Source: Bacteroidia bacterium
Lineage (GTDB): Bacteria; Bacteroidota; Bacteroidia; Chitinophagales; Chitinophagaceae
Length of the DNA stretch: 64,000 nt
Reading direction: 5' to 3'
Assembly: GCA_030426665.1 (NCBI GenBank)
Contig: JAUHYD010000001.1
Span: 124,001 to 188,000 of the forward strand
The notes under the pieces were generated by a model. It ran no database searches and was not told the DNA's origin. It saw nothing but the letters and a program-made list of their open reading frames with translations. Numbering within the stretch: the stretch's first letter is position 1; each line of letters starts with the position of its first letter. This document shows, piece after piece, positions 7,521 to 8,442 of this stretch. A program made the translations under genes and the position numbers.

Positions 7521-7535
7521 GTATTCTATTTCTTG

Positions 7536-7606
7536 CGGACCGGACGGGATTCGAACACGTCCCAACCAAAGGTCGGGACCGTGACAGGACGACATTCTAA
7601 CCAGCT
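7536..7606 (-). pseudogene. tRNA-Asp remnant 1 (distal, most decayed)
   Basis: Read on the minus strand it keeps the D-loop (AGCTGGTTAGAAT), the anticodon loop CTGTCAC (GTC), a T-loop TTCGAAT and the 3' acceptor strand CCGGTCCG. The 5' acceptor strand is gone. The 3' side of the anticodon stem and the variable loop are replaced by a GTCCCGACC/GGTTGGGAC hairpin. The T-stem has a further G-to-T change (GTGTTCGAATCCC). It cannot fold as a normal tRNA. The stop codon of the adjacent GIY-YIG gene lies in its D-loop. Confidence 0.8.
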
Positions 7607-7857
7607 ATGTTTTTTGACGAAGCAATCAATCCCTCAATTTGCTTGTGACTATATTTTTTTAGTGCCTTTTCCCTGATCAATGCTTCTTTTTTCGTTGGCA
7701 ACTTTTCCACATAAACTAACTTCCAGGGTCGCTTACCGGCAGTATAATGGCTTTCTCCATTATTGTGTTGTAATAGTCGCACCTGAGGATTTTCTGAAAA
7801 TCCTTTGTAGTAGCTTTCATCTACTTCACTCCGAATAATATAAACGTAAAAACCCAT
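7597..7857 (-). CDS. Small GIY-YIG nuclease-domain protein, copy A (distal)
   Basis: An 86-residue stand-alone GIY-YIG domain of the COG2827/UPF0213 type. Visible are the modified GIY...YIG pair (FYVYIIRS and YYKGFS), the catalytic-helix arginine (NPQVRLLQHNNG), KRPWKLVYVEK, and the glutamate-containing helix KKEALIREKALKKY. The start is the ATG of MGFYVY; an upstream ATG would add only an untypical MLFKGFWIFRGF leader. The TAG stop falls inside the D-loop of the tRNA-Asp remnant. The protein is nearly identical to copy B. Relatives are small predicted DNases of unknown role; the placement between tRNA copies suggests a part in mobility, which is inference. Confidence 0.85.
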   Translation of the reverse strand: MGFYVYIIRSEVDESYYKGFSENPQVRLLQHNNGESHYTAGKRPWKLVYVEKLPTKKEALIREKALKKYSHKQIEGLIASSKNIAG

Positions 7858-7891
7858 AAATCCACGGAAAATCCAAAATCCCTTAAACAAC

Positions 7892-7917
7892 AAAGCTCCA
7901 CATTTCTGTGAAGCTTT
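7892..7917 (-). terminator. Hairpin between tRNA remnant 2 and GIY-YIG copy A
   Basis: Minus strand AAAGCT-T-CACA, GAAA loop, TGTG-G-AGCTTT, then GTTGTTT. It is the same as the hairpin after the intact tRNA, so it is part of the repeated unit. It may act as a weak terminator or an RNA processing element. Confidence 0.35.
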
Positions 7918-7921
7918 TTTG

Positions 7922-8000
7922 CGGACCGGACGGGATTCGAACCCGTCCCAACCGAAGGTCGGGACCGTGACAGGACGACATTCTAACCAACTGCACTACC
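7922..8000 (-). pseudogene. tRNA-Asp remnant 2 (middle)
   Basis: On the minus strand this copy runs from GGTAGTGCAG through the D-loop, the CTGTCAC anticodon loop (GTC), an inserted GTCCCGACC-TTC-GGTTGGGAC hairpin, an intact T-arm GGGTTCGAATCCC and CCGGTCCG. Only the first five acceptor bases (GGACC) are missing at the 5' end. The D-stem and anticodon stem are mismatched (TCGTC cannot pair with GGTCC). It is probably not a functional tRNA, although its T-arm and 3' acceptor strand look normal. Confidence 0.82.
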
Positions 8001-8255
8001 TACTATATTTTTTGACGAACCAATCAAACCCTCTATTTGCTTGTGACTATATTTTTTTAGTGCCTTTTCCCTGATCAATGCTTCTTTTTTCGTTGGCAAC
8101 TTTTCCACATAAACTAACTTCCAGGGTCGCTTACCGGCAGTATAATGGCTTTCTCCATTATTGTGTTGTAATAGTCGCACCTGAGGATTTTCTGAAAATC
8201 CTTTGTAGTAGCTTTCATCTACTTCACTCCGAATAATATAAACGTAAAAACCCAT
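7983..8255 (-). CDS. Small GIY-YIG nuclease-domain protein, copy B (next to intact tRNA)
   Basis: A 90-residue GIY-YIG domain protein, the same as copy A except near its C terminus (GLIGSSKNIVGSAVG against GLIASSKNIAG). Its last codons read into the tRNA-Asp remnant, and the stop is the TAG of the remnant's D-loop GGTTAG. I start it at the ATG of MGFYVYIIRS. The open frame continues upstream through the whole tRNA-Asp, but VVQLVRMPPCHGGGRGFESR is just a translated tRNA. It has the same motifs as copy A, so both may be active. No partner gene is visible. Confidence 0.87.
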   Translation of the reverse strand: MGFYVYIIRSEVDESYYKGFSENPQVRLLQHNNGESHYTAGKRPWKLVYVEKLPTKKEALIREKALKKYSHKQIEGLIGSSKNIVGSAVG

Positions 8256-8289
8256 AAATCCACGGAAAATCCAAAATCCCTTAAACAAC

Positions 8290-8315
8290 AAAGCTCCACA
8301 TTTCTGTGAAGCTTT
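8290..8315 (-). terminator. Hairpin just after tRNA-Asp, possible terminator
   Basis: Five bases after the tRNA 3' end, the minus strand has AAAGCT-T-CACA, GAAA, TGTG-G-AGCTTT followed by GTTGTTT. A GAAA-capped stem with a T-rich tail fits an intrinsic terminator for the tRNA. If so, the GIY-YIG genes are cut off from the tRNA promoter unless read-through occurs. Confidence 0.45.
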
Positions 8316-8319
8316 TTTG

Positions 8320-8393
8320 CGGACCGGACGGGATTCGAACCCGCGACCTCCGCCGTGACAGGGCGGCATTCTAACCAGCTGAACTACCGGTCC
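8320..8393 (-). tRNA. tRNA-Asp (anticodon GTC)
   Basis: The sequence folds as a normal 74-nt tRNA: acceptor GGACCGG/CCGGTCC with discriminator G, D-arm GTTC...GAAT, anticodon stem CCGCC/GGCGG with loop CTGTCAC (anticodon GTC), and T-arm CGGG-TTCGAAT-CCCG. CCA is not encoded. The discriminator G is the aspartate identity base. It is the only intact copy of the three tRNA-Asp-like sequences here and the one next to a promoter. Confidence 0.97.
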
Positions 8394-8410: not shown

Positions 8411-8442
8411 CAAATATAGATCGAATATTTTGAAATAGACAA
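8411..8442 (-). promoter_or_regulatory. Bacteroidota-type promoter of tRNA-Asp
   Basis: On the minus strand TTG (8442-8440), a 21-base spacer, then TATATTTG (8418-8411), a perfect match to the TAnnTTTG element. The tRNA starts 17 bases downstream. Confidence 0.75.

Follow-up and report, generated by a model that had tools for sequence, protein, structure and literature searches.

What is a small nuclease gene doing between a whole tRNA gene and pieces of that same gene? The question is raised by a locus of a Bacteroidia bacterium of the family Chitinophagaceae (assembly GCA_030426665.1, contig JAUHYD010000001.1), in the window, that is, the whole stretch of 64 000 nucleotides that was analyzed. 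An intact tRNA-Asp is followed there by two near-identical units of hairpin, GIY-YIG gene and tRNA remnant, an arrangement that was read from the letters alone in an earlier note and was confirmed with ARAGORN, PF01541 and alignment.

The tRNA-Asp array and other GIY-YIG loci of the same genome

The features, in the direction of transcription of the tRNA, are the following.

8411..8418, minus strand: promoter element TATATTTG upstream of tRNA-Asp (inferred from a sequence match)
8319..8393, minus strand: intact tRNA-Asp(GTC) (ARAGORN; Rfam tRNA, 69.9 bits)
8291..8314, minus strand: terminator-like hairpin of unit 1, between the tRNA and the nuclease gene (from the sequence; identical in unit 2)
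7983..8255, minus strand: GIY-YIG nuclease gene of unit 1, 90 aa from ATG (ORF, PF01541)
7921..8000, minus strand: tRNA-Asp remnant 1, tRNA positions 6-75, 80% identity (alignment)
7946..7964, minus strand: hairpin TCCCGACC-TTC-GGTTGGGA in remnant 1, directly before the conserved 3' block 7945-7921
7893..7916, minus strand: terminator-like hairpin of unit 2 (from the sequence)
7597..7857, minus strand: GIY-YIG nuclease gene of unit 2, 86 aa from the equivalent ATG (ORF, PF01541)
7535..7606, minus strand: tRNA-Asp remnant 2, tRNA positions 14-75, 79% identity (alignment)
7560..7578, minus strand: hairpin in remnant 2 (from the sequence)

The octamer TATATTTG is inferred, by its match to the consensus, to be the -7 promoter element known from Bacteroidota. 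The two direct-repeat units 3' of the tRNA, with copy spacing of 386 and 398 bp and 98% identity over a 300-nt stretch, each run from the hairpin through the GIY-YIG gene to a 5'-truncated tRNA-Asp piece, and the stop codon of each nuclease gene is the TAG of the D-loop GGTTAG, inside the remnant. The remnants had been described as lacking only the 5' end of the tRNA. The 5' truncation holds but the 'only' does not, because in both remnants the hairpin TCCCGACC..GGTTGGGA substitutes for the sequence after the anticodon loop. The distal remnant is the more decayed one, as had been proposed, but only slightly (79% vs 80% identity, starting at tRNA position 14 vs 6). The proposed absence of an integrase stands for the five window ORFs flanking the array, which were scanned without finding one, and the units themselves hold only the nuclease ORF; the scan was confined to the window, so that other loci remain outside it. 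The flanking genes include those for a glutamine cyclotransferase, a PorP/SprF protein, a PD40 protein and a copper monooxygenase-like protein. A search of the 4.62 Mb window genome with the tRNA-Asp sequence (E-value 1e-5) returned the intact gene, the two remnants and nothing else; the gene at 8393-8319 is the sole tRNA-Asp found in this genome.

The window genome contains 18 matches to PF01541. Eight of these genes lie beside tRNAs in four arrays, namely Asp (two genes), Val (two), Ala (three) and Arg (one), and the Arg locus is reversed, with a 5' tRNA piece followed by the nuclease gene and then the intact tRNA. The ten further GIY-YIG genes are located elsewhere: five in tandem groups of three and two, two as the singles L006 and L007, and three (L011, L013 and L018) that are not recovered by the 31-sequence profile used later.

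Several observations on this genome stand apart from the tRNA-associated arrays. The loci L012 and L014 (C1:167.7-169.2 kb and C34:37.7-38.7 kb) contain another type of GIY-YIG gene in tandem units of ∼600 bp, each gene being bracketed by an inverted repeat (GTCATTGCGAGGAACGAAGCAACCTC), and no tRNA was found there; this looks like a separate, palindrome-bounded element. At L006 (C20:17349-20579), a single GIY-YIG gene is found amid repeated copies containing GTCGACGATAGGAGACATC or close variants. The pattern TCCCGAn(2-14)TCGGGA occurs at 32 places in the window genome (G000), compared with 5 for the reversed-pattern control; 12 of the 32 belong to the nuclease-tRNA arrays of Ala and Val, and the other 20 are dispersed. 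Three clustered weak tRNA matches below the cut-off at C1:175971-176279 are possibly tRNA pieces without a nuclease gene. Among 29 loci compared for tRNA-Ala synteny through the downstream J-domain gene, an intact tRNA-Ala was seen only at the window genome's own locus, and a fragment, on the other strand, at L235, which makes this synteny uninformative.

Distribution of the arrangement and the displaced tRNA piece

The window protein has matches in 28 of 40 relatives, and a 31-sequence profile has matches in 119 of 198 sampled Bacteroidota genomes at E ≤1e-12, with up to 20 per genome. The members of the profile are tRNA-associated, which biases the search toward that clade and not toward any location. 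Neighborhoods were read for all relatives' matches listed and for 29 of 30 phylum loci (those returned, the other one being the window genome's Ala locus); the phylum set also took 60 regions picked among the matches listed, which were sorted by score, and three repeats were dropped. The resulting 149 arrays come from the window genome (8), the relatives (54) and the phylum (87).

An intact tRNA lies on the same strand within 200 bp in 117 of these arrays (4 in the window genome, 36 in relatives and 77 in the phylum), so that random placement relative to tRNAs, which the earlier note had named as a refuting condition, is not what is observed. A further 12 arrays (0, 7 and 5, respectively) have only a same-strand tRNA fragment, and in none of the 149 is there an intact tRNA within 200 bp on the opposite strand alone. 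The 20 arrays with neither consist of 15 from the window genome and relatives, scoring 40-66 bits, and five from the phylum; in the latter, the tRNA is 212 bp away at L158 and 242 bp at L179, L186 and L191 are at contig ends, and L205 is without any tRNA. Divided by score, the 133 arrays with at least 67 bits include 116 with an intact tRNA, 12 with a fragment only and five with neither, and the 16 below 67 bits include one, none and 15, respectively. If 45 tRNAs in 3.5 Mb are assumed, the chance of finding 77 of 87 arrays near a tRNA is ∼1e-144, and that of finding 4 of 8 in the window genome is ∼8e-8.

With one Ala-type protein as the query, 72 loci were obtained. Among the Bacteroidota represented are Mucilaginibacter, Pontibacter, Algoriphagus, Echinicola, Chitinophaga sp. 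E66 and Taibaiella, and three further contigs are from Melioribacteraceae (L297) and Neomarinimicrobiota (L302 and L314). These three each carry a tRNA, a nuclease gene and a tRNA piece, with a distance of 213 bp between tRNA and nuclease at L314. The Ala-type probe, the only one used, has no match in the plasmid collection. Among phage records, 19 matched the window probe, all at <60% identity, and at the one phage homolog that was inspected no tRNA was annotated or found nearby. Thus, within the limits of one plasmid probe and one inspected phage homolog, no vehicle for transfer between cells was found.

Whether a fragment of the same tRNA accompanies the other copies had been put forward as a check, and the answer is positive. 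The set consisted of 162 nuclease genes that score at least 70 bits and have an intact tRNA within 260 bp, with the loci of the Ala-type scan included, tandem units counted singly and no gene common to two loci; a piece was accepted if its score exceeded that of every one of 20 shuffles by more than 6. A piece of the same tRNA is present on the opposite side of the nuclease in 149 of the 162 cases (148 with other shuffles), which leaves 13-14 genes without a significant one. Two mirror-image geometries are represented: A, with the order tRNA, nuclease, 3' piece (piece found in 114 of 125), and B, with the order 5' piece, nuclease, tRNA (35 of 37). To the extent that this can be judged from sequence, the arrangement meets the criterion provided by the fungal mobile ORFs discussed below, namely that a replacement gene end and the displaced native end flank the nuclease gene.

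The conserved outer block of the piece, which by construction is anchored at the 3' end of the tRNA (A) or at its 5' end (B), could be delimited in 130 of the 162 cases. At 95 of the 130 junctions, the nuclease-facing edge of this block is directly adjoined by a perfect hairpin whose stem has 6 bp or more, compared with 1.3 expected from shuffled flanks, and the stem is at least 7 bp long at 72 junctions, compared with 0.3 expected; no perfect stem of this minimum length (6 bp) is present at the other 35. By a softer measure, the 34-nt flank folds with an energy below z -2 at 50 of the 130 junctions. Common forms of the hairpin are TCCCG..CGGGA at Ala, Lys, Val, Asp and Asn loci, TCCGCC..GGCGGA at Met and CCTGCC..GGCAGG at Arg, and several Ser loci have double hairpins.

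Hairpin-bearing 5' tRNA pieces that lack a nuclease gene also occur, upstream of the intact tRNA and likewise in arrays. They are found at the Ala locus of the window genome and at the Ala loci L337, L344, L339 and L340, and not at L338 or L225. In the window genome (L106/L010, on C30, upstream of 139405), at least six units of ∼95 bp, each combining a TCCCGA hairpin with a 5' piece of tRNA-Ala, precede the intact tRNA-Ala. A 5' piece is located 5-130 bp upstream of at least 15 of the 79 geometry-A tRNAs, with hairpins unscored in this count. By inference, such GIY-less units may be non-autonomous.

The nuclease and the sites that lack it

The two window proteins match PF01541 with 63.3 and 64.1 bits, far above the curated cut-off of 22.6. 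The conserved Tyr, Gly, Arg, His, Asn and Glu residues of GIY-YIG nucleases have catalytic roles, and in the alignment Tyr6, Tyr17, Gly19, Arg27, His31, Asn32 and Glu63 are invariant in 31 of 31 nuclease proteins. The closest proteins of solved structure, by sequence, are the UPF0213 proteins 1ywl (E-value 6e-14) and 1zg2 (3e-13) and the structure-specific endonuclease SLX1. Weak matches were obtained to the NCBIfam model of group I intron endonucleases (12 of 31 proteins), the best PHROG homing endonuclease family (9 of 31) and the PADLOC candidate PDC-S14 (15 of 31), the window protein being without a match to either of the last two. The median dN/dS is 0.14 over 78 pairs with finite dS, none of which reaches 1, and by this measure the nuclease genes are under purifying selection; another 276 pairs were excluded by saturation, and the pairs include some repeats of a single locus (L008 and L035).

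In the FastTree tree of 150 proteins, the amino acid of the adjacent tRNA (14 states) changes 39 times, compared with 100 after shuffling (minimum 92), and the geometry changes 22 times, compared with 31 (minimum 25-26). The nearest-neighbor nucleases share the tRNA amino acid in 39 of 39 cases at 70% identity or more, in 79 of 94 at 55-70% and in 5 of 17 at 45-55%. On the evidence of this tree and these pairs, the nuclease clades are specialized by tRNA type.

Pairing in the junction hairpins survives two-sided changes: among 18 distinct 18-nt forms, which were chosen for the outer five pairs, 125 of 126 cells are paired, compared with a shuffled maximum of 117. Such preservation might suggest that the nuclease or the hairpin-bearing piece acts on RNA or as RNA, in processing, as an anticodon nuclease or as a decoy. 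We regard this as quite unlikely because the sequence neighbors with solved structures are UPF0213 proteins and SLX1, and the displaced pieces are usually without one of the tRNA ends.

Integrases recombine in tRNA arms, and when the junctions are mapped roughly they cluster at the variable region, the T-loop, the D-loop and the anticodon loop. In geometry A, the block edges are assigned to the variable region (42), T-loop (25), stem (25), anticodon loop (5) and D-loop (1), and in geometry B to the D-loop (18), anticodon loop (8), stem (4), variable region (1) and T-loop (1). This clustering, as well as the PADLOC matches of 15 of the 31 proteins, weak as these are, would be compatible with a guard function, whereby integrases that attach at tRNA genes are blocked or decoyed by the nuclease together with the altered tRNA pieces. 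The absence of an integrase among the five flanking window ORFs and of a PADLOC match for the window protein speaks against such a function, which appears very improbable.

The occurrence of clean empty sites had been proposed as another check, and such sites were found, at the level of species. In the genus of genome G219, 120 genomes were searched at two loci, tRNA-Met and tRNA-Ala, and 30 loci were read for each. At tRNA-Met, G219 (L207) has five units, and no unit is present at any of the 29 other loci read; in three of these (L370, L369 and L377) the sequence found 3' of the last remnant in G219 directly adjoins the tRNA (over 902 bp at 83% in L370), and at other Met loci the downstream flank begins further from the tRNA. 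At tRNA-Ala, eight of the 30 loci contain an intact nuclease gene, three a broken or partial one and 19 none, and at L334, L337, L338 and L351, in comparison with the filled locus of G219 (L225), the downstream flank adjoins the tRNA. The way the flank joins the tRNA at the empty sites implies that the displaced piece ends at the original end of the tRNA, within a few bases that are left open. At the tRNA-Asp of the window genus, a nuclease is present in four of the 30 loci read, with a disrupted frame at L118; L120, L123 and L137 share the upstream neighborhood and have a bare tRNA-Asp followed by a terminator-like hairpin, and L129 and L131 have a tRNA-Asp remnant without a nuclease. All comparisons of empty and filled sites span different species, not strains. 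With this limitation, the loci satisfy one criterion for free-standing homing endonucleases, insertion at or near sites that are empty in relatives, on both flanks for Met and Ala and by upstream synteny for Asp.

If homing occurs, the intact tRNA of a filled locus could be expected to be protected from the nuclease by recoding. At tRNA-Ala, one haplotype is found at 6 of the 8 filled and 7 of the 19 empty loci, which is not a significant link to the element (Fisher p 0.10, relatedness uncorrected), and the filled genome has the same tRNA-Met as five empty genomes compared with it. In the absence of consistent protective recoding, self-immunity is unexplained. At L340, the T-stem allele of the remnant differs from that of the intact tRNA, a case that is not settled by a simple model in which the remnant is the native part, and the tRNA parts are generally too similar to tell whether the displaced end is closer to the gene of the relatives. 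Two side observations can be added: the tRNA-Ala(GGC) genes of L331-L359 comprise several anticodon-stem and T-stem haplotypes within one genus, and at G020:C92:35233-35520 there are three tandem tRNA-Asp fragments, on a different contig from the intact tRNA-Asp.

Some of the pattern could be a passive product, whereby a GIY-YIG gene landed between tandem tRNA copies, followed by unequal crossing-over and decay. Unequal crossing-over between repeats does explain second units, and the window units are 98% identical over 300 nt. Nevertheless, the same arrangement recurs at tRNAs of 14 amino acids with clade-specific nucleases, in both geometries, with empty sites and with dN/dS far below 1, so we give this possibility very little credence.

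Tandem arrays are frequent among these loci, and the phage nuclease SegB is reported to amplify a tRNA in phage T6 (PMC13096335). A domesticated device for tRNA dosage or rescue is therefore conceivable, in which the nuclease amplifies a tRNA that is depleted by toxins or phage defenses, and the host benefits. This is unlikely: more than one ARAGORN call for the same amino acid within 700 bp occurs in only 11 of the 117 arrays with an intact tRNA, and some of these additional calls correspond to pieces with a hairpin. The remaining extra copies are truncated, so amplification would add little tRNA, and presence is patchy within one genus.

A proposed homing scheme and its relation to known systems

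The facts to be accounted for are that a GIY-YIG gene lies between a whole and a partial copy of the same tRNA and that, so far as alignment of related loci can tell, it is cleanly absent in some related species. Probably, this is the work of a free-standing homing endonuclease, carried on an element that substitutes its own sequence for part of an invaded tRNA gene and moves the original part aside, with cleavage and transfer being inferred. The nuclease would cut an element-free tRNA gene of the preferred type within the tRNA sequence, and the break would be repaired by homologous recombination with an element-bearing copy. The tRNA copies on both sides of the nuclease gene would serve as homology arms, so that one side rebuilds a complete tRNA from the sequence of the element and the other keeps the host's old part, which would end up on the far side of the nuclease gene. 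In the displaced part, the hairpin takes the place of a tRNA arm or interrupts one; it would mark the junction and probably renders this copy uncuttable and unusable as a tRNA; destruction of the recognition sequence is the favored function, although the role of the hairpin is open and its palindromic form unexplained. Further units, such as those of the window, could arise by a new cut in the rebuilt tRNA or by unequal crossing-over between direct repeats. Expression of the nuclease probably depends on transcripts that start at the tRNA promoter and read through into its gene.

By inference, this scheme explains why one tRNA is intact and a native part is displaced, why empty sites exist, why the clades are tRNA-specific and how arrays grow in tandem. 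Sequence directly supports the anatomy, the empty sites, the specificity and the selection; the cutting, recombination, immunity and expression steps are all inferred, and there are no data on cleavage, transfer or excision. The model of the earlier note, in which a replacement part is brought in and the displaced parts accumulate outside, gains support and fits the joins at empty sites, with mobility and cutting still inferred; the mirror geometry, the hairpin at most junctions, the GIY-less 5' units and the specialization of clades on tRNA types are additions to it.

The elements look like a widespread, so far unrecognized kind of mobile element, and no description of such elements was found among the open-licence papers listed for GIY-YIG nucleases and tRNA. 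The broadest version is that of phylum-wide, nuclease-driven parasites of tRNA genes, with autonomous (GIY-YIG) and GIY-less, hairpin-only forms and with clades keyed to the kind of tRNA, which rebuild tRNA genes, some of them single-copy, from the sequence of the element and drive the evolution of host tRNA genes by conversion; this is possible but somewhat doubtful, and we advance it only tentatively. If homing is real, this would be a tiny, integrase-free form of parasitism on an essential gene that does not kill the gene, many pseudo-tRNAs would be explained, and a natural set of small nucleases, each knowing one kind of tRNA gene, would be available.

Like the UPF0213 proteins 1ywl and 1zg2, the nucleases are small, single-domain GIY-YIG proteins. 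Other stand-alone GIY-YIG types, which may or may not be UPF0213, apparently differ from the tRNA-associated ones in location: 15 of the 16 low-scoring arrays (<67 bits) are without a tRNA or fragment within 200 bp, compared with five of the 133 that score higher. Genomic islands and small satellites that integrate into tRNA genes carry a replacement part that restores the tRNA, leave the displaced part at the far end and use an integrase. The present elements resemble them in the restored tRNA and in the displaced tRNA part at the far end, and differ in that no integrase was found (in the window) and that, in the mirror geometry, it is the 5' part of the tRNA that is replaced (35 of the 149 pieces).

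If homing is real, the elements would also be a bacterial counterpart to phage SegB and to the mobile ORFs of fungal mitochondria. SegB of phages T4 and T6 is described as a free-standing GIY-YIG homing endonuclease (PMC2988022, PMC13096335), and is reported as enriched beside tRNAs of many isotypes, acting on tRNA-containing DNA and driving tandem amplification of segB and tRNA in phage T6 by homologous recombination (PMC13096335). The position of a GIY-YIG gene beside tRNA genes is shared (117 of the 149 arrays here). In contrast, SegB resides in phage genomes, and the accessible text describes neither replacement of a tRNA part nor a hairpin-capped remnant; any kinship by sequence would rest on weak PHROG homing-endonuclease matches alone (9 of 31 proteins, none for the window protein).

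The mobile ORFs, found in Allomyces atp6 and in Glomus atp6, atp9, cox2 and nad3, bring a replacement 3' gene end beside an endonuclease gene and displace the native end, and that of Glomus atp9 is a GIY-YIG, most others being LAGLIDADG (PMC3630166). Here too, by inference, a replacement gene end is supplied and the native end lies beyond the nuclease gene. Unlike the present elements, those mobile ORFs target protein genes of organelles, and no junction hairpin is described in the accessible text; the target here is a bacterial tRNA gene, which in the window genome is single-copy. The present elements combine traits of SegB and of mobile ORFs in bacterial chromosomes and add to them the hairpin and the mirror geometry.
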